Shown here: positions 1,147 to 21,822 of the stretch, in pieces
How the letters are laid out: each line of letters begins with the position of its first letter
How positions within the stretch are numbered: the first letter of the stretch is position 1
IMG/VR virus record: IMGVR_UViG_3300010354_000573
Span: 1-25,642 of that record
Length of the DNA stretch: 25,642 nt
Strand: one strand, 5' to 3'
Source of the DNA: a virus
Notes under the pieces: model-generated
Seen by the model: the letters and a program-made list of their open reading frames with translations, nothing else
What the model was told of the DNA's origin: nothing
The model's database searches: none
Made by a program: the position numbers and the translations under genes

Positions 1147-2964
1147 TCAGCAATTCCACGCACGAAGAGATTTATTGATTCTGCTATCTGGATCTCTAGC
1201 AGTTTTTTTAGAAGTTAGTTTTGCTTTCATGCCTTTCATTCTGGCACAGAACGACGCCCTGCGGGGATTTCCAACCTTCTTTGAAGGTGCTTTAAGGTCG
1301 CTTCCAGGATTCTCACGTTCGTAGGATTTACGTCCTTTTTCGTTAAGTCCACCTTTTTTGTTTTTACCCTCTTTGCGAGTCCATGCGGCAGTTTCACCGA
1401 TGACTCCAATATTTAGAAGATAATTTTTTCTCTTCTGTTCAGAATCAGATGGAATGACAGCAACATTACAATTCATAGTTTCATTTGCCACAATGAATGG
1501 TTTTGTTGGATCATTGATTGCTGGAACATATGAATAAAGAACCGCACCAGGATAAATTTTTTGAATTGCTGCATCAACATCTTCTTTAGATGGTCTTTCT
1601 TGAGTAGAGAAGAACATGTTGATTTTTATAGTTTTGGTTTTCCAATTCAAAAGAATTGTATATGTTTGACCAACACTATAAATTGTTTTTGCTGCTTCAT
1701 CAACCAGTTCATTATCTGGAGTGTATGAATTAGCAAGTTTTACCATACTGCTGGGGAGTAAAGGACCTTTTGCCTTACCAGCAGCATTAGGAACTCCAGC
1801 ATCAGCAGCCTTATTAATTTTCTGCTGTCTTCTAGCCTTGTTTGGATCTCCACCACCAACTTCAAAACTTATCCCTTCGAGAACTTCTTTTACACAATTG
1901 GGAACCATTCTATTTCCTTTTTTCTTCATACCTTTAGCGGTATAACCTTTCCAACATGCTTCAGAAACATCCTCATCACTTGACATATATTCTGCTGCAG
2001 TATCAATAAAATCTGCTGCTCTGGTAATCTTGGATTGAACCCAAGCGGGGATTTGTTGATTTGGTTTCTTTACAATTTTTCTAAGAATATTGATAGATCT
2101 TTCAATCTGATCAAATTCAATTCTTGCCATATATCCTTCTTCGTCCTTCATCTTTCCAGAAGCAATTTCTTTATGATCTTCTGGAAAAAATTCTTCGGAT
2201 TTATTTCCCCAATTTTTTGCACCTGCCTTACGACACTTGACAAGTGCTCCTGATGCATAAGCACTAGGCCAAACGTCATAACGGGACTTTACTTTATGAT
2301 AGCAAGCATCCTTTTTGCCACTACCTTTTCCTTTGACATCCGACTGTTCATTCATTTTCTTTTTTCTTCCCTGACAGTGTGCTTTTTGTGAAAAACCTTT
2401 AGGATTATCACAATCTATCGATCTTTTATATTTATCTGACCACTCTTCATTTCTTTGATTTGGTTTATCTGTAGAAACGTATGTTGGTTTTGCAGCACCA
2501 GATTTTGCTTGTTGTCCTGGGTCTGCTGCTTTTTTTCTTCTTGAAGCAGAACGCCTTTCTGCAGGAGTCATTGATGCTCTTTTTGAAGAAGATACACACT
2601 TTGGAGTTCCTTCTCCTGGAGTATCACTTGCACAAGTACCACCAGTTACAACATTAACCCATCCAGGTTTTCCTTCTTTAGATTTAGAACCTTTAAACCA
2701 TTGATGAAGATTTCCTTCGGTTACTTTTTTCTTCTCAACTTTTTTCAATTGAGTATAGTAATCTGGGCGCTCATCAACATGTTGAAGTGCAGTAATTTTA
2801 GCCCCAGATTTACTGGTAGTATGCTCACCTTCAACTTCAGTGCCCATTTTTACTTGCTTCATAATGGTCTTTAAAGAAACCTTATGCTTTTTGGCAAGTT
2901 CTTTTGGAGATTTGTATGGTTTTGTTGGACCTTTAGGATCCCTCTCTTCTGTAAATGAAGACAT
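1147..2964 (-). CDS. Mosaic basic protein of short marine-phage modules (probable head protein)
   Basis: A 605-aa, strongly Lys/Arg-rich protein with paired cysteines. I prefer the ATG at 2964 (MSSFTEERDPKG) over the GTG at 2997, since the GTG overlaps the late promoter and lies upstream of its expected transcript start. Modules in order (residues from 2964): a helix-turn-helix-like segment running into VEGEHTT...PDYY, about 11-75 (resembles DUF5661); WFKG...GWVNV...C...PKC...MTPAERR, 85-165; CDNPKGFSQKAHC, 185-197; KDACYHKV...WPSAYASGALVKC, 218-244; a helical PAWVQSKI...AADFIDTAAEY unit, 305-327; CWKGY...GMKKKG...VPNC, 337-357; a domain paralogous to the 104-aa neighbour (VGQTY...IYPGAV), 430-475; and a C-terminal TRKEGKNKKGGLNEKGRKSY...NPRRASFCARM...LRAW unit, 529-603 (like DUF6321). 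These motifs occur in many marine phages and some giant viruses. Function unknown; nucleic-acid or head-core binding is inferred from charge. Confidence 0.85.
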   Translation of the reverse strand: MSSFTEERDPKGPTKPYKSPKELAKKHKVSLKTIMKQVKMGTEVEGEHTTSKSGAKITALQHVDERPDYYTQLKKVEKKKVTEGNLHQWFKGSKSKEGKPGWVNVVTGGTCASDTPGEGTPKCVSSSKRASMTPAERRSASRRKKAADPGQQAKSGAAKPTYVSTDKPNQRNEEWSDKYKRSIDCDNPKGFSQKAHCQGRKKKMNEQSDVKGKGSGKKDACYHKVKSRYDVWPSAYASGALVKCRKAGAKNWGNKSEEFFPEDHKEIASGKMKDEEGYMARIEFDQIERSINILRKIVKKPNQQIPAWVQSKITRAADFIDTAAEYMSSDEDVSEACWKGYTAKGMKKKGNRMVPNCVKEVLEGISFEVGGGDPNKARRQQKINKAADAGVPNAAGKAKGPLLPSSMVKLANSYTPDNELVDEAAKTIYSVGQTYTILLNWKTKTIKINMFFSTQERPSKEDVDAAIQKIYPGAVLYSYVPAINDPTKPFIVANETMNCNVAVIPSDSEQKRKNYLLNIGVIGETAAWTRKEGKNKKGGLNEKGRKSYERENPGSDLKAPSKKVGNPRRASFCARMKGMKAKLTSKKTARDPDSRINKSLRAWNC

Positions 2965-2987
2965 TAAAATATTAAAATCTTTAAAAA

Positions 2988-2995
2988 TATTTATC
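2988..2995 (-). promoter_or_regulatory. T4-type late promoter candidate (GATAAATA)
   Basis: Read on the minus strand this is GATAAATA, one mismatch from the T4 late consensus TATAAATA. It ends 24 nt before the ATG at 2964, giving a predicted leader of about 18 nt. It would drive the 605-aa, 104-aa and left-edge genes as one transcript. Confidence 0.6.
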
Positions 2996-2996
2996 A

Positions 2997-3003
2997 CTAA
3001 ATA
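2997..3003 (+). promoter_or_regulatory. Late-promoter-like element, plus strand (CTAAATA)
   Basis: CTAAATA on the plus strand keeps the TAAATA core of the late octamer and lies 21 nt before the ATG at 3025. It sits back-to-back with the minus-strand element at 2988-2995, so 60 bp of intergenic DNA would serve both directions. The match is weaker than the minus-strand ones. Confidence 0.4.
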
Positions 3004-3024: not shown

Positions 3025-3483
3025 ATGAAAAGATTACTACTCTTTTCGTTATTCTTTATAATGCCCGCTAGTGCAGCTGAAATCACATCAAGAATTACTG
3101 ATTCGGTACAGTTAAAAGTTGATGGTGCTGCAGTTCAATCTGCCAGAATTGGTGCTTCTTATTCTGTCTCTGGAACCAACATTCAATCTACATCTTTTGG
3201 TGGTGTAGGTGGTGCTGGAACCTATGATGTTAATACAGCAGGACAAGCATTCACATTCAGCGAAACTTTCAATGCTGCTGATACACCCGTAACTTCACAG
3301 ACAGTTACTACTGGCGTAATCGGTTCGCCCAATCTCTATGGCGACAGCGTAACTCAAACTGGTGGTGATAAGGGAACTCTTGCTGGTACTCTTTCTGGTA
3401 CTGGAGTTCCTACTGTAACTGCTGGCGGAGCAGGAACTACAGCAACTGGTCAAAGAACCATTGAATTGAGTGTATTTAAATGA
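3025..3483 (+). CDS. Exported cyanophage protein, first of tandem paralogues
   Basis: A 152-aa protein on the strand opposite to the virion genes. Residues 1-18 form a classical Sec signal peptide (MKRLLLFSLFFIMPASA, with cleavage expected after ASA). The mature part is rich in Thr, Ser, Gly and Ala with few charges, typical of a beta-sheet surface protein: ITDSVQLKVDG, SYSVSGTNIQS, then VNTAGQAFTFSETF and a C-terminal SVFK. The block SYSVSGTNI...AGQAFTFSETF is repeated in the next gene as SYTVTGTNI...QGAPFQFSETY, so the two are divergent tandem duplicates. I have an impression of similar families in T4-like cyanophages, always without function. It overlaps the next gene by ATGA, and a CTAAATA element precedes it. 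Location in the host periplasm or envelope is inferred from the signal peptide. Confidence 0.88.
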   Translation: MKRLLLFSLFFIMPASAAEITSRITDSVQLKVDGAAVQSARIGASYSVSGTNIQSTSFGGVGGAGTYDVNTAGQAFTFSETFNAADTPVTSQTVTTGVIGSPNLYGDSVTQTGGDKGTLAGTLSGTGVPTVTAGGAGTTATGQRTIELSVFK

Positions 3484-3839
3484 AAAGAATCCTAGCAGGA
3501 CTTTTCCTGCTAGGGTGTCATAATGCTGCCCTAGCAGAAAGTATCGTACCTAACTTTACAAGAGGTACAATAAATTCGACAACCGAATCTACTACTAAAA
3601 TTGTAGAGGCTATTCGCCAAGTTGAATATACAACTGGCACATCATACACTGTGACTGGAACTAACATTAACATTCCTGGCAATCCAAAACCTGGAGCAAA
3701 TTATACGATTATGAATCAAGGTGCTCCATTCCAGTTCAGTGAAACTTATCTCGGTCCTGGAGTGGCTAAAGAAACATGGATAGATCGATCAACAGAAATA
3801 AATTCAACTACTACATCAATCTCTGTCTTTACGCAGTAA
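3480..3839 (+). CDS. Exported cyanophage protein, second tandem paralogue
   Basis: A 119-aa protein whose ATG overlaps the stop of the previous gene (ATGA); no good Shine-Dalgarno is visible, so translation is probably coupled. The N-terminus MKRILAGLFLLGCHNAALAE is a signal peptide that can be read two ways: signal peptidase I after ALA (residue 19), or a lipobox-like LLGC with the cysteine at residue 13. The mature protein is Ser/Thr/Asn-rich (IVPNFTRGTINSTTESTT) and carries SYTVTGTNI...GAPFQFSETY, paralogous to the gene before it, ending in ISVFTQ. The signal-peptide coding region contains two overlapping perfect inverted repeats. Function unknown. It overlaps the following gene by 64 nt. 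Confidence 0.86.
   Translation: MKRILAGLFLLGCHNAALAESIVPNFTRGTINSTTESTTKIVEAIRQVEYTTGTSYTVTGTNINIPGNPKPGANYTIMNQGAPFQFSETYLGPGVAKETWIDRSTEINSTTTSISVFTQ
3491..3537 (+). promoter_or_regulatory. Two mutually exclusive hairpins in the 5' coding region
   Basis: CCTAGCAGGA (3491-3500) pairs perfectly with TCCTGCTAGG (3505-3514) across a 4-nt loop. The middle arm can instead pair through CTGCTAGGG (3507-3515) with CCCTAGCAG (3529-3537), 9 bp with a 13-nt loop. The first hairpin begins 11 nt after the A of the ATG at 3480, inside the ribosome footprint, so it could block initiation unless ribosomes arriving from the upstream gene open it. Confidence 0.55.
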
Positions 3840-4321
3840 TTCTAAATGGCACGGCATTTGCTCAATCTGCTCCTAGCAATACTAATATTGCAGGTCCTTC
3901 TGCTAGTGCCACTGGGAACGTTACTAATCAAGCAGTACAAGTCCTACAAGGGCCGTATGCAGTCAACACTTATGGACAGGGAGTTAGTTGCCAAGGACCA
4001 ACATTTTCAGTGTCTCCATTTCTTTTAAAAAGTGGCAATGAAAGTGATGATCCAAGTACATTCGCATCAAGAAATGAAAATTGGGGTATTTCTGCAGGAG
4101 TCAATATCCCATTAGATAATAGTTTAATGGAACTATGCAAGGCAAGAGCACGTACAGAAATAGAAAGGCAAAAGGCAGAAGCAGATAAAGCACGTCTTGA
4201 CTTTGAACTTGTTAGGATGCTAAAATGTGGTGAAGCAATTAAAAATGGTATTATGTTTCACCCAGAAAGTCCATATGCAAAGATATGCTCTGACATCGTA
4301 GTGACGAATATAAAAAAATAA
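3776..4321 (+). CDS. Exported cyanophage protein with C-terminal coiled coil
   Basis: A 181-aa protein. The only ATG in frame before the signal peptide is at 3776, inside the previous gene; it gives a positively charged start (MDRSINRNK), a hydrophobic stretch (LCLYAVILNG) and a cleavage site after TAFA at residue 29. The mature N-terminus is Ser/Thr/Asn-rich, followed by a patch with YAVNTYGQGVSCQGPTFSV, then a helical charged region (ARARTEIERQKAEADKARLD) that should form a coiled coil. It ends with CGEAIKNGIMFHPESPYAKIC. Four cysteines in the mature part would allow two disulfides in the periplasm. I have an impression of a similar family near these neighbours in other cyanophages; it has no function assigned that I know. 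The weak ribosome site and 64-nt overlap suggest translation coupled to the second gene. Confidence 0.84.
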   Translation: MDRSINRNKFNYYINLCLYAVILNGTAFAQSAPSNTNIAGPSASATGNVTNQAVQVLQGPYAVNTYGQGVSCQGPTFSVSPFLLKSGNESDDPSTFASRNENWGISAGVNIPLDNSLMELCKARARTEIERQKAEADKARLDFELVRMLKCGEAIKNGIMFHPESPYAKICSDIVVTNIKK

Positions 4322-4338
4322 TAAAAATGGTATAACAT

Positions 4339-4364
4339 TTTACATTAAAAAAATTCTATATATT
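4339..4364 (+). promoter_or_regulatory. Weak sigma70-like promoter candidate
   Basis: TTTACA (4339-4344) and TATATT (4359-4364) resemble -35 and -10 boxes, but the 14-nt spacing is shorter than the usual 16-18. If used, transcription would begin at about 4370 with the structured element. The flanks are very AT-rich, so chance matches are likely. Confidence 0.22.
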
Positions 4365-4365
4365 G

Positions 4366-4427
4366 TACGTTCATTCGCTATTTCCGAATAGCGAACGGAA
4401 GTAAGCCGACTCGGAACGGATCGTTCA
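4366..4427 (+). ncRNA. Structured non-coding element or leader
   Basis: This GC-richer island in AT-rich DNA contains a perfect 9-bp hairpin, TTCGCTATT (4374-4382) with AATAGCGAA (4387-4395) around a TCCG loop. It is followed by a small palindrome CCGACTCGG (4406-4414) and a second hairpin GAACG-GAT-CGTTC (4414-4426). It has no open frame of its own and ends 4 nt before the ATG of the 51-aa gene. It may be a structured leader, an RNA-processing site or a protein-binding site. I see no T-tract, so it is not an ordinary terminator. Confidence 0.5.
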
Positions 4428-4430
4428 TCT

Positions 4431-4586
4431 ATGGAAGCACTCTTATTAACTTGTCTTCAAGCACAATTTATCGTTGGTAAAGTGATTACTAATCCAGAAC
4501 TAACTCTTCAACAGAAGAATGACATTATCTGGGAAGTAAAACAAATGACAAGAAAAGAATGTAAGATAGACGCAAAAGCCGACTGA
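4431..4586 (+). CDS. 51-aa cyanophage conserved small protein
   Basis: The frame from ATG 4431 to TGA 4584-4586 encodes MEALLLTCLQAQFIVGK...NDIIWEVKQM...ECKIDAKAD. The pattern (MEALLLxCLQAQF, a later IIWEVKQ, and a Cys near the C-terminus) is one I associate with small cyanophage proteins of unknown function. The N-terminal half is hydrophobic without a clear cleavage site. No strong Shine-Dalgarno precedes it; instead the structured element at 4366-4427 ends just before the start codon, so initiation may depend on that structure. Confidence 0.75.
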   Translation: MEALLLTCLQAQFIVGKVITNPELTLQQKNDIIWEVKQMTRKECKIDAKAD

Positions 4587-4612
4587 AGGAACGCTCTTTA
4601 ACTTAAACCCTT

Positions 4613-4618
4613 AAGGAG
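4613..4618 (+). promoter_or_regulatory. Strong ribosome binding site (AAGGAG)
   Basis: AAGGAG lies 7 nt before the ATG at 4626. It is one of only two near-consensus Shine-Dalgarno sequences I see in the window and fixes the start of the DUF4278 gene. Confidence 0.8.
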
Positions 4619-4625
4619 AACCCTA

Positions 4626-4784
4626 ATGTCACAAGCAACTTATCGTGGATGTCAGTATAATACTGATACCCCTAAAGAAGAATATCGTAAGTGGTATTCC
4701 GAAACTCACGCACCAGCACATCCTAATAATGTATATCGTGGAACACCTTATCGTCCATGCAAGAATGAAGAGGTAGCAAAATGA
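4626..4784 (+). CDS. DUF4278-type small protein
   Basis: A 52-aa protein with two copies of the YRGxxY signature: TYRGCQY at residues 5-11 and VYRGTPY at residues 39-45. That doublet is the mark of DUF4278, a short family of cyanobacteria and their phages with no known function. The length is normal for the family. A strong AAGGAG precedes the start, and the stop overlaps the next start (ATGA). Its presence supports a cyanobacterial host. Confidence 0.85.
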   Translation: MSQATYRGCQYNTDTPKEEYRKWYSETHAPAHPNNVYRGTPYRPCKNEEVAK

Positions 4785-4867
4785 ACTGGTTGCATTTGAT
4801 CCGTATACAGACCATTAAAAGAAAAAAATTAGAAAACGCTCAGTATTACATGGCAACTTTGGGATGA
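4781..4867 (+). CDS. 28-aa putative small protein
   Basis: The frame starts in an ATGA overlap with the DUF4278 gene and ends in an ATGA overlap with the next frame. The product is MNWLHLIRIQTIKRKKLENAQ... followed by YYMATLG; it is basic with an aromatic start. The only evidence that it is translated is the exact overlaps at both ends, which form a coupled chain; no homologue is known to me. Confidence 0.5.
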   Translation: MNWLHLIRIQTIKRKKLENAQYYMATLG

Positions 4868-5019
4868 AATACTTGATTCCAATTTTAGTGCTATTGCGTA
4901 TTATATCAAATGATGGTGTTTTCAGTGAGCAGAGAAGATTCCCAATCAAAAAAGAACCACCCGAAATTCGGAAAGTTCAAAGAAGAAAGGGTAAAAAATT
5001 TTTTAAAATGCAATTCTAG
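4864..5019 (+). CDS. 51-aa basic protein with N-terminal hydrophobic segment
   Basis: The frame starts by ATGA overlap and ends at TAG 5017-5019, running 17 nt into the 3' end of the opposing 300-aa gene. Residues 1-14 (MKYLIPILVLLRII) are a hydrophobic segment that could be a membrane anchor or an uncleaved signal. The remainder is highly basic (RKVQRRKGKKFFKMQF). A small membrane-associated protein is plausible; the function is unknown. Confidence 0.55.
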   Translation: MKYLIPILVLLRIISNDGVFSEQRRFPIKKEPPEIRKVQRRKGKKFFKMQF

Positions 5020-5905
5020 ATGCTAATTTTTTAGCAATCTTTTTAGCAGGGGCAAACAAGGGTTTAAATCTTTGTTGCCCCTCTTTTGTAAATTTTTCTG
5101 ATATAATATCATCAATAATAATCTTGTTATCAATCTCGTATAAAGAGTTAATATCTACCTGATCTCTTAAATATTGTTCTGGATTGTCTATTTGATCTAC
5201 AAGACGTGTTCCATTTGCAGAGTATTCAAATATATCAATATGTCCTTCTTCTGCCATGACATAATGAAGTACAGGTTTGACTTGTTTGATTTTGATTTTA
5301 AACTTATTCTTCGTTGCTTCTTTTATGAATGGTTCAGCAGCGTTCTTTAATGCATTAAATGCTGTTGTCGCTATCATTGTAGACGCCGTAGTAACTACTG
5401 CTACAGCACCTGCCGTAGCAACAAGAGAAGGATCAGGTAAATTAATATCAACTCCACCGATTGTAAATGTTGGTTGTGGTTTATCTGCTGGTATTTCTGC
5501 AACAGAAGTAGATGGTTTCGTTGCTTGCTGAACTGCTGGAGGCAATTCTGGTGGTTTGCTATCTGGCAACCCTCTGTTCTTAGCAGCATCCTCCTGTTGC
5601 TTCTGTTGTTCTGCTCTTACAGCAGCATCAAATTCTTCTTGAGTTGGCACATTAACCGTTGGGTAATTCACCCTTGGGTTTGGTAACTCAAAAATTGGCA
5701 AAGATAAACCCCTATTAACAGGATCTGGAACAGACCTTGTTATAGGGATTTCTATTCTTTGAATTATTGTATCAGGGGACTGGAGCTGCTGAACCTGGGG
5801 CACTTTGTTGCTCCTCAGATTCTCCAGTTGCGCTTGGTTTATCTGGGGGACTTGGTGGTGTTGGTTCAACCTTAGGTTGGTTATCTGATTTACTTCCTGG
5901 GGCAT
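5003..5905 (-). CDS. Cyanophage protein, Pro/Gln-rich N-terminus, Ala-rich hydrophobic centre
   Basis: A 300-aa protein starting at ATG 5905. The first third is rich in Gln, Pro and Asn (VPQVQQLQSPDTIIQRIEIP), followed by a Pro/Lys/Glu linker. Residues about 155-192 are Ala/Val/Thr-rich and hydrophobic (VATAGAVAVVTTASTMIATT), possibly one or two membrane passes. The last third is charged and ends in a basic patch (KKIAKKLASRIAF). It overlaps the upstream 103-aa gene by 134 nt in another frame and, at its 3' end, both the convergent 51-aa gene and a plus-strand terminator. It may be envelope-associated; no enzymatic motif is visible. I recall comparable proteins next to small terminase genes in other cyanophages, without function. 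Confidence 0.8.
   Translation of the reverse strand: MPQEVNQITNLRLNQHHQVPQINQAQLENLRSNKVPQVQQLQSPDTIIQRIEIPITRSVPDPVNRGLSLPIFELPNPRVNYPTVNVPTQEEFDAAVRAEQQKQQEDAAKNRGLPDSKPPELPPAVQQATKPSTSVAEIPADKPQPTFTIGGVDINLPDPSLVATAGAVAVVTTASTMIATTAFNALKNAAEPFIKEATKNKFKIKIKQVKPVLHYVMAEEGHIDIFEYSANGTRLVDQIDNPEQYLRDQVDINSLYEIDNKIIIDDIISEKFTKEGQQRFKPLFAPAKKIAKKLASRIAF
5049..5089 (+). terminator. Probable rho-independent terminator of the plus-strand island
   Basis: GGGGCAAACAA (5049-5059) pairs with TTGTTGCCCC (5072-5081) with one bulged A, followed by TCTTTTGT. It lies 30 nt past the last plus-strand stop and inside the coding sequence of the convergent 300-aa gene, so the same bases do two jobs. Confidence 0.5.
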
Positions 5906-6083
5906 CTTTCTTTACGGCATCAACTCCAAAAGTAGCTAAAGAGGCCGTGAAAATTGACGCAATAAATGTTGGATCCATTTTTGGTAAAAATCCACCATAA
6001 CTTGCCGTTAAGAGTGCGGCACTCCATCCCAAAACAAGAATTCTCACTTTCACTGCTCCATTACTCGTTACTTTATTAGACAT
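5772..6083 (-). CDS. Small membrane protein (two hydrophobic segments), holin-like candidate
   Basis: A 103-aa protein, MSNKVTSNGAVKVR then hydrophobic VLGWSAALLTASYGGFL, a short loop with PKMDP, and a second hydrophobic FIASIFTASLATFGV. It ends in a Pro/Ser/Glu-rich charged tail (PTPPSPPDKPSATGESEEQQ). Two segments with a polar tail fit a small membrane protein such as a holin, but nothing proves that, and other membrane roles are equally open. A GATAAATA late promoter lies 25 nt upstream of the ATG within the end of gp16. The last 134 nt are shared with the 300-aa gene in the +1 frame. Confidence 0.8.
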   Translation of the reverse strand: MSNKVTSNGAVKVRILVLGWSAALLTASYGGFLPKMDPTFIASIFTASLATFGVDAVKKDAPGSKSDNQPKVEPTPPSPPDKPSATGESEEQQSAPGSAAPVP

Positions 6084-6096
6084 CGTTTTCAGAAAA

Positions 6097-6516
6097 CTAA
6101 TCCGAACTATTTATCTTATTTTCTTGTTTGATTAGTTTCAAAAGATCTGCAGTAGATCCAACATACAACGCATTGTTTGTGATTGTTTTTGGACCCTGAT
6201 ATTCATCATTAATATCCTTCATTTTTTTGTGTAGATCTGCTAGCTTATCTGCAACATCAGCAACATTTTTAATAAGTTGACCAGCAACTTCATATGCCCT
6301 TGGATGATCGGAACTAGCAGCAACATCTAATATTCCATTGACTGCTTCCTGACCTTTTTCAATCAAGGAATATAACTGTGCTCTACTATACTCATAATCT
6401 TTTTCTACTTCTATAGATTCTTTAGATTTTTCAATAGAAGATGGAACCTCAGTTTTTTTAACAATCTGAGTTTCTACATTTAATGCTTCACCAATTTTAT
6501 CGTATGAATTGTCCAT
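6097..6516 (-). CDS. gp16: Terminase small subunit (T4 gp16-like)
   Basis: A 139-aa protein, mostly charged helix, close to the T4 gp16 length of 164. It has the expected helical arrangement: a central YSRAQLYSLIEKGQEAVNGI, then LDVAASSDHPRAYEVAGQLI, and KNVADVADKLADLHKKM, typical of phage small terminases that form a ring and hand concatemeric DNA to the large subunit. The SDHPRAYEVAGQL segment is the most diagnostic piece. It lies 3 nt after gp15, in T4 order (13, 14, 15, 16). The large subunit gp17 is not in this window; instead other genes follow. Confidence 0.88.
   Translation of the reverse strand: MDNSYDKIGEALNVETQIVKKTEVPSSIEKSKESIEVEKDYEYSRAQLYSLIEKGQEAVNGILDVAASSDHPRAYEVAGQLIKNVADVADKLADLHKKMKDINDEYQGPKTITNNALYVGSTADLLKLIKQENKINSSD
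6108..6115 (-). promoter_or_regulatory. T4-type late promoter candidate (GATAAATA)
   Basis: Minus-strand GATAAATA inside the 3' end of gp16, giving a predicted leader of about 19 nt before the ATG at 6083. Confidence 0.6.
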
Positions 6517-20208: not shown

Positions 20209-21822
20209 TTAAAACTCTAATACAATTTTAATGTCTTCTTTTTGACTGGTAGAACGAGGAATTGCTGCTCTGTTATCTATATAGATGACTTCTCCAGAAT
20301 ACTTTTCGATTTCTGGATTTGCTATTCCTTCGATAAAACTCTGATCTAGATTTATAATTCTTGAACCCGAAACCGTTGTGACTCCAGGGTTTGCAGCACT
20401 TCCAAATGTGCTTTGAATCTGTAAATTAGATCCAGAAGCCGCACCAGAAATTGTAAGAGAACCACCACCTGCAAGTTCACTATTTCTCTTGAAATCCCAA
20501 ATTTTATAACTAAATCCACTTGTTCCAAGACCAACTGGTTGATAATATTTTAGAACACCAGTTGTACTATCATATGAAGCAACTCTTCCAGCAGCAGTTG
20601 ATCCAATTCCGATAGTTTGGGTTATTAAACTATCTGCAGTATAATTTCCTGCCGTAGGTGTTTCTAATTTAATAGCACCTAAAGCACTTGCTTGAGATAC
20701 TGTTAATAATTGTGTTTTGCTACCATAAACTGTTGGATTTTTGATAATACCAACTCTTGCAAAATCATTACCAACAATAAAATCTGGATTATTTCCAGTA
20801 TTTTCATATCTAGAATAAACAAGAACTCTATAAGCACCAAGTTCTTTATAGATATCATGTCCATGTCCACCTGTTGGTGGGATAATGACATCAAAAGTTG
20901 CTATCGATGATGATGCAGCGCCCACTGCAGTCAATCCAATAGATCTCAAATCTCCACCAGTTTCAGTTAATGGCGCATTTGGATAGAACTGAATTGTACC
21001 TCTAGTATAACCAGTACCACCATTTGTAACTGAAACGTTACTTACTTTTCCATCAGAACCAACGGTAATACTAACTTTACCATTGGTTCCATCTCCAAGG
21101 ATTGGAATATTCTTATAAGTTCCTGATGGAGAATATCCAGATCCTCGGTTTGTGATGGTGACCGTTTTAATTTCACCATCTACAGCGTTATTTTTAACAT
21201 CTGCAGTATCACCATTACCCCAATTTGAAGGAACTGGAACAAATTCTACAGAGTCAAATTTAATGATATCACTTGGAGAAATAGTATAAAGATATTTCCA
21301 AACATATCCATCACCAGAAGTTCCAGCAACTCTTGGTTCTAAATCAGTAAAAGTTGGTTCATCTAAGGATGGTTGTCCTGTAGGATGGTCAGGATCAATA
21401 CCATTTTGAAGGCAAATATAAACTTTAAAATCTTTATTTACGACATAATAGTTTGAATCATATAGAGTAGTAGAACTAGTTACTTTTGCCAGGTTGCTAG
21501 AACTATAGTCATGTCTATACATGTCATAAACTGTACCCGAGGTCCAAGTGACCTTTCTGATCATTCTTCTGACATCTTCAGTGCTCACTTTTTTCAAAGC
21601 AATCATCGTGTCAAAATAATCATTCTGCTCCTTGAACATGTCTTTTGGAGCAGGAACATTAGTATTCCAATCAGTTGTTCCAGAACCAGTCGCAGTATCA
21701 GTAGAGTTTGGTAACCCTATAAAAGTATAGTAAACATTAGTTGTCGTACCAATACCAGTGAAACTTTTTACAAAAGTTTCTGCATTCAATATTCTAAATT
21801 GATCTGAAATGATAGCAGGCAT
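20209..21822 (-). CDS. gp8: Baseplate wedge protein (T4 gp8-like)
   Basis: A 537-aa protein, against 334 aa in T4. gp8 is a wedge subunit of the tail baseplate. The diagnostic segment is GDGYVWKYLYTISPSD (residues 170-185), nearly the same as T4 gp8 (GDGYVWEYLF). The N-terminal ISDQFRILNAETFVKSF and the DYFDTMIALKKVSTEDVRRM segment, then YDSNYYVVNKDFKVYICLQN, also fit. Residues about 215-300 carry two GxGY-type units (NRGSGY, NGGTGY), and about 400-450 a further beta unit (SLITQTIGIGSTAAGRVASY); both are extra compared with T4. The gene is preceded by a doubled late promoter motif with a very short leader and no Shine-Dalgarno. Confidence 0.9.
   Translation of the reverse strand: MPAIISDQFRILNAETFVKSFTGIGTTTNVYYTFIGLPNSTDTATGSGTTDWNTNVPAPKDMFKEQNDYFDTMIALKKVSTEDVRRMIRKVTWTSGTVYDMYRHDYSSSNLAKVTSSTTLYDSNYYVVNKDFKVYICLQNGIDPDHPTGQPSLDEPTFTDLEPRVAGTSGDGYVWKYLYTISPSDIIKFDSVEFVPVPSNWGNGDTADVKNNAVDGEIKTVTITNRGSGYSPSGTYKNIPILGDGTNGKVSITVGSDGKVSNVSVTNGGTGYTRGTIQFYPNAPLTETGGDLRSIGLTAVGAASSSIATFDVIIPPTGGHGHDIYKELGAYRVLVYSRYENTGNNPDFIVGNDFARVGIIKNPTVYGSKTQLLTVSQASALGAIKLETPTAGNYTADSLITQTIGIGSTAAGRVASYDSTTGVLKYYQPVGLGTSGFSYKIWDFKRNSELAGGGSLTISGAASGSNLQIQSTFGSAANPGVTTVSGSRIINLDQSFIEGIANPEIEKYSGEVIYIDNRAAIPRSTSQKEDIKIVLEF

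Follow-up and report, generated by a model that had tools for sequence, protein, structure and literature searches.

A late module of exported and membrane proteins shared by T4-like and T7-like cyanophages, with a possible role in outer-membrane disruption at lysis

The window analyzed here is a virus record of 25,642 bases with a G+C content of 35.5%, in which no RNA families were found. Its minus strand carries cyanophage T4-like virion genes, among them those for the terminase small subunit and the tail sheath stabilizer. Three plus-strand open reading frames (ORFs) reported in a first-pass annotation, here called P1, P2, and P3, were confirmed at the positions given in Table 1, which also lists two minus-strand genes, DUF6450 and Pro-TM, and the promoters. 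The trio had been placed inside the virion operon; instead, it adjoins that operon and has a late promoter of its own. On the other side of this promoter, a 616-amino acid protein encoded at 1147–2997 (minus strand) joins the DUF5661 and DUF6321 domains; its start is probably at 2964, because a late promoter motif, ATAAATA, lies at 2994 on the minus strand, diverging from the P1 promoter. Short plus-strand ORFs at approximately 4431–4586 and 4626–4784 occur in the interval 4321–5003.

Table 1. Positions of the trio, its convergent membrane partners, and their late promoters in the window
Feature	Position	Strand	Description
T4-type late promoter CTAAATA	2997–3003	+	22–28 nt upstream of P1
P1	3025–3483	+	Exported protein, 152 aa; phrog_564 / T4-GC 237; P2 paralogue
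P2	3480–3839	+	Exported beta-rich protein, 119 aa; phrog_650 / DUF6322 (PF19847) / T4-GC 236
P3	3776–4321	+	Exported protein, 181 aa; phrog_848 and phrog_1755 / T4-GC 235
Pro-TM	5003–5905	−	Proline-rich membrane protein; phrog_9426/phrog_570, T4-GC 234 relative; convergent with trio
DUF6450 protein (PF20048)	5772–6083	−	Small membrane protein; phrog_721/2714/21865, T4-GC 218 relative; convergent with trio
T4-type late promoter ATAAATA	6108–6114	−	Approximately 25–31 nt upstream of DUF6450 gene

Among the 19 genes of the window, Sec-type signals were predicted in exactly P1, P2, P3, and the membrane protein at 5772–6083 by a rule-based scan that looked for a positively charged n-region, a hydrophobic core, and a small-x-small site. 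Across approximately 450 distinct orthologue sequences, the hydrophobic core, charge, and small-x-small site were retained in nearly all groups, in agreement with the earlier proposal that all three proteins carry such signals. The signal sequences were less conserved than the mature parts (identity of 55% versus 82% in P2 and 43% versus 76% in P3). In an orthologue scan, a lipobox was absent from P1 and P2 and occurred in at most 4% of P3 sequences; the reading of P2 as a lipoprotein, suggested by an LLGC motif in the window's copy, was rejected because the cysteine is not conserved. Compared with an i-spanin, which has an N-terminal (type II) transmembrane segment and a periplasmic coiled coil, P3 combines an N-terminal hydrophobic segment with a long predicted helix, yet has a likely cleavage site. 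The median dN/dS values were 0.11 for P1, 0.19 for P2, and 0.17 for P3, indicating that all three are real genes under purifying selection.

P1 and P2 had been described as diverged paralogues, and the profile comparison bears this out (hhalign probability 97.7%, E-value 1.4e−12; BLASTP E-value 8e−6); the duplication is ancient. The genes overlap by 4 nt (P1/P2) and 64 nt (P2/P3), and the P2/P3 overlap was kept in a single relative frame in 162 of 163 cases. For P3, in which four cysteines and a coiled coil had been noted, cysteines 72, 121, 151, and 171 of the mature part were invariant in 75 diverse orthologues, and a helix of 42 residues was predicted at 115–156 with a pLDDT of approximately 85–94, from which the T7-like copies lack exactly seven residues, or one heptad. 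In three phages the P3 start has been annotated too late, so that the signal peptide is lost (P-SSP7 045, at 38783; S-TIP37 47, at 20214; and S-RIP2 54, at 869); these starts were misannotated because the true start overlaps P2.

The sequences are already known as hypothetical families. Profile matches assigned P1 to phrog_564 (E-value 1e−31), P2 to phrog_650 (4e−31), and P3 to phrog_848 (5e−54), and phage records numbered 280 for phrog_564, 358 for phrog_650, and 462 for phrog_848/1755, all from cyanophages or marine viruses. In S-SM1, profiles related P1 to T4-GC 237, P2 to T4-GC 236, P3 to T4-GC 235, the DUF6450 protein to T4-GC 218, and Pro-TM to T4-GC 234. The P1-P2-P3 order, the P2/P3 overlap, and the convergence with relatives of T4-GCs 234 and 218 were all found, with S-SM1 arranged likewise. 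Sullivan et al. (2010, PMC3037559) grouped T4-GCs 218, 219, 234, 235, and 237 into a cluster of hypothetical genes that occurs in all cyanophages studied except S-PM2, and supposed that the clustering had functional reasons. By these profile matches, the trio is a member of the T4-GC 237/236/235 cyanophage cluster rather than a one-off. To call it unexpected, as the first-pass annotation did, was an overstatement, given that the trio occurs in hundreds of cyanophages and that its cluster has been on record since 2010.

The motif [AC]TAAATA, documented as a cyanophage late promoter (PMC2984593), occurs only once on the plus strand of the window, at the P1 promoter. Among distinct loci, it was present within 60 nt of P1 in 94 of 95 that are window-like and 43 of 47 that are S-RIM8-like; for DUF6450, the motif lay upstream in 46 of 81 and 48 of 50, respectively, against a baseline of 1–2% of random 60-mers and 10–30% of other ORFs. 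It was never found upstream of P2, nor upstream of Pro-TM in T4-like loci. On the simplest reading of this promoter pattern, T4-like phages have one late operon for P1-P2-P3 and another, convergent with it, for DUF6450-Pro-TM.

The same genes occur in T7-like cyanophages in another arrangement. In P-SSP7, genes 042–045 encode, in order, Pro-TM (phrog_9426), DUF6450 (phrog_721), P2 (phrog_650), and P3 (phrog_1755), on one strand and shortly before the large terminase gene. This set recurs in S-RIP2, S-TIP37, and P-SCSP1g, with Pro-TM on the other strand in P-SCSP1g; in that phage, DUF6450-P2-P3 (4513–5598) lies on the strand opposite to its left-hand neighbours, as if the whole block had been flipped or relocated while Pro-TM stayed. 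Among podovirus-type IMG/VR loci showing DUF6450, the gene was upstream on the same strand in 69 of 69 (median distance, 149 nt), whereas among T4-like IMG/VR loci it was downstream on the opposite strand in 171 of 174 copies. Within 22 complete phages, P3 and DUF6450 occurred together in all 12 P3-positive genomes, and neither occurred in eight of the 10 P3-negative genomes; the other two, S-CREM2 and S-B68, showed no more than weak matches to DUF6450, interrupted by stop codons. This co-occurrence gave a Fisher p-value of 1.4e−4 on a hand-picked set of records that are not phylogenetically independent. S-TIM5 has both genes, approximately 29 kb apart. Judged by gene order and linkage, P2, P3, DUF6450, and Pro-TM travel as one module, as one operon in T7-like phages and as two convergent late operons in T4-like phages. 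In the T4-like phages S-H38, S-SM2, and Bellamy, a variable metabolic-gene island separates P3 from DUF6450, with genes for carbon metabolism and photosynthesis such as gnd, zwf, and ptoX, and also talC in S-H38. The gap between the convergent halves may be a place where insertions are tolerated because it separates two late operons.

For the DUF6450 homologue P-SSP7 043, the record annotates two TMHMM segments, and a plain hydropathy scan placed one above the threshold; we read the protein as having two putative transmembrane segments and as holin-like. The P-SSP7 Pro-TM (gene 042), which together with S-SM1 T4-GC 234 is homologous to the window's protein, has a proline-rich N-terminal part, a transmembrane segment, and a basic C-terminal part. 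From this charge pattern, Pro-TM is probably oriented N-out, with the transmembrane segment in its second half. In Syn9, two further proteins encoded between DUF6450 and Pro-TM (gp162-gp163, 3091–3992) appear membrane-anchored by an N-terminal transmembrane segment, and gp163 (T4-GC 219) has a glycine-rich C-terminal half. Given these, the T4-like module may comprise six or seven envelope proteins.

The structural models of P2 and P3 were weak. AlphaFold predicted long beta hairpins for P2 (pLDDT 80, pTM 0.35) and a single confident helix for P3 (pLDDT 68, pTM 0.39), and no fold was identified for either. The fold search with P2 gave weak matches (best Z-score of 4.0 over 53 residues with an rmsd of 5.6; best Foldseek E-value of 3e−3). 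These matches, to hairpin-barrel toxins and ring collars at Z-scores of 4 or less, at most hint at a ring-like assembly of hairpins and are not evidence of function. The results for P3 were too uncertain to use, and a PDB sequence search with both proteins returned nothing useful. Chains of cyanobacterial outer-membrane complexes did not appear in the fold-match lists, which rules nothing out. Assignment of P3 to the OEP/TolC family (PF02321) was rejected at 13.3 bits against a cut-off of 22; among the P3 orthologues, PF02321 matched five of 75, with a best E-value of 0.029. No enzyme motif was found in the trio, and a role in defence or anti-defence was rejected because PADLOC gave no meaningful match.

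Most matches to the trio in genome collections, where the hits bore mixed species names, were phage contigs binned into metagenome-assembled or single-cell genomes, but three high-GC contigs of freshwater Synechococcaceae (63–66% G+C) were chromosomal and carried P1-P2-P3 (L362, 159–2834; L363, 305–2040; and L364, 10310–12814). Their neighbours include citrate synthase on two contigs and a DUF3352 protein on two, with HrcA or NAD kinase nearby. A convergent Pro-TM was visible on L362 and L364, and DUF6450 was not found in the genomes of the three contigs. The host P3 proteins formed one supported clade with dN/dS values of 0.07–0.14; host P2 and Pro-TM were similarly constrained, and host P1 less so (0.35, from one measurable pair). 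Other cyanobacterial genomes carry more distant P3 homologues that stand alone and show the four-cysteine pattern (L369, 1432–2064; L370, 1396–2010; and L371, 1468–2001); they are unannotated by Pfam, and one is located on a single contig, at 1.9 Mb. P3 is homologous to exported proteins encoded on cyanobacterial chromosomes (BLASTP E-value 3e−10, 30% identity over 117 aa). Any P3 match occurred in seven of 300 family genomes, two of which look like phage contigs. Because P1-P2-P3 occur on chromosomes without DUF6450, these exported proteins do not kill the cell by themselves; living cells tolerate P1–P3, which have a function on the host side and may serve another envelope role there.

The first-pass annotation had suggested a coordinated envelope function in superinfection exclusion, receptor masking, or lysis control. 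The conserved export signals, the late promoter, and the linkage to and co-occurrence with two membrane proteins give good support to a coordinated, late, envelope-directed function, and they do not choose among those three roles. Five envelope-directed proteins, late promoters in T4-like phages, and a position near the terminase gene in T7-like genomes together point to lysis. In T7, the holin gene and the overlapping Rz/Rz1 pair are located there too, near the terminase genes. Outer-membrane disruption is our best guess because many phages with the module are on a published list of spanin-less phages, which includes P-SSP7, Syn9, S-SM1, S-SM2, and P-SSM2 (Kongari et al. 2018, PMC6139136), all of which carry the module. 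That survey found no spanins in 20 marine cyanophages, for which a fragile membrane was the guess offered, and proposed that the part of the o-spanin could be taken by an outer-membrane protein and that of the i-spanin by a membrane protein oriented N-out. We therefore tentatively propose, with a probability of roughly 0.4, that P1–P3, DUF6450, and Pro-TM form a late envelope module that opens the outer membrane at lysis in place of Rz/Rz1 spanins. Both convergent operons would fire late from gp55-type late promoters, and Sec would deliver P1–P3 to the periplasm or the outer membrane, where P3 could assemble through its helix and disulphides and P1/P2 through their long beta hairpins. DUF6450 would act as a holin-like trigger, and Pro-TM would join the inner membrane to P1–P3, allowing the outer membrane to be opened when the cell lyses; P1–P3 and Pro-TM would fit the o-spanin-like and N-out i-spanin-like roles. 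The fuller proposition, that this is a spanin-independent disruption system common to T4-like and T7-like phages, with no sequence kin among known lysis proteins and with homologues in hosts, in which P1–P3 are pre-assembled in the outer membrane and triggered via Pro-TM and DUF6450, is possible but doubtful.

Several observations weigh against lysis. S-PM2, P60, and Syn5 have neither P3 nor DUF6450, although they too are on record as spanin-less; no endolysin was found beside the module, and no similarity to a known holin or spanin was detected. The chromosomal P1-P2-P3 genes are under purifying selection without DUF6450, and the P3-DUF6450 pair in S-TIM5 is widely separated. The lack of a lipobox and the weakness of the structural models also count against this reading. 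The host copies fit a trigger-dependent part of a lysis system and, equally, a surface or exclusion role, in which P1–P3 would coat or alter the outer membrane and block the adsorption of other phages or of the phage's own progeny. On that view, the chromosomal copies would either protect a host that has domesticated them or be ordinary surface proteins. This role is favoured by the persistence of P1-P2-P3, with Pro-TM where visible, in Synechococcaceae chromosomes at low dN/dS for P2, P3, and Pro-TM, by the stand-alone four-cysteine homologues of P3, and by the fact that duplications like that of P1/P2 are common among surface proteins. However, exclusion genes are usually early and the trio has a late-type promoter; it is strongly linked to a small membrane protein, no known defence family was matched, and host copies are rare, which makes this role rather unlikely.

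The homology of P3 with chromosomal exported proteins of cyanobacteria, and the metabolic genes between the two operons of several T4-like phages, would also suit a host-derived periplasmic or outer-membrane helper, an auxiliary set of envelope genes that supports the metabolism or envelope integrity of the infected cell until lysis and does not itself cause lysis or exclusion. We consider such a helper unlikely, given that a core phage function is suggested both by the occurrence beside the terminase gene in small T7-like genomes and by the strict co-occurrence with DUF6450; the lack of an enzyme motif in the trio also argues against it. It is very unlikely that P1–P3 belong to the virion, being first exported and then added to the particle at a late stage or as it is released, even though their promoter type is common to virion genes and the weak P2 matches include phage collar proteins. 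All three have predicted signal peptides, no solved virion chain was matched by sequence, and the wording of PMC3037559 implies that T4-GCs 235 and 237 were still hypothetical despite virion proteomics of S-SM1, which carries them. S-CREM2 and S-SZBM1, for which virion protein tables exist, lack the trio.

For the open question of how the outer membrane of Prochlorococcus and Synechococcus is breached by marine cyanophages, the proposed lysis module offers a concrete alternative to a fragile membrane, with named genes; a genetic system exists for S-TIP37 and Syn9 (PMC8776855). If true, the proposal would account for the final step in a process through which much of the primary production of the ocean is recycled. 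Even if the lysis reading is wrong, the analysis reveals an envelope function that is conserved in two families of phages and in some hosts. In the limited literature searched, the two-phage-family module, its paired late promoters, the co-occurrence, the link to spanin-less phages, and the host copies were not described. The portion of PMC3037559 on the T4-GC cluster gives neither a function nor export signals and treats the cluster as a T4-like mobile cassette; in contrast, our analysis links it to T7-like cyanophages, two late promoters, and host copies.

Compared with the Rz/Rz1 spanins of lambda and T7, the module is likewise targeted to the envelope, includes an overlapping gene pair, is late, and in T7-like genomes lies near holin-like and terminase genes. 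Unlike them, it has no lipoprotein and no sequence similarity to spanins, its P2 and P3 carry Sec-type signals, it has additional membrane partners, and its lysis function is putative. The DUF6450 protein resembles class II holins (T7 gp17.5 and phage 21 S) in its size of approximately 100 aa and in two putative hydrophobic segments, read as N-in/C-in, but it has no sequence match among holin families and its membrane activity is putative. Finally, P3 shows a weak local resemblance to OEP/TolC proteins, with a beta segment followed by a long periplasmic-type helix, but has only half of their repeat and four additional cysteines.
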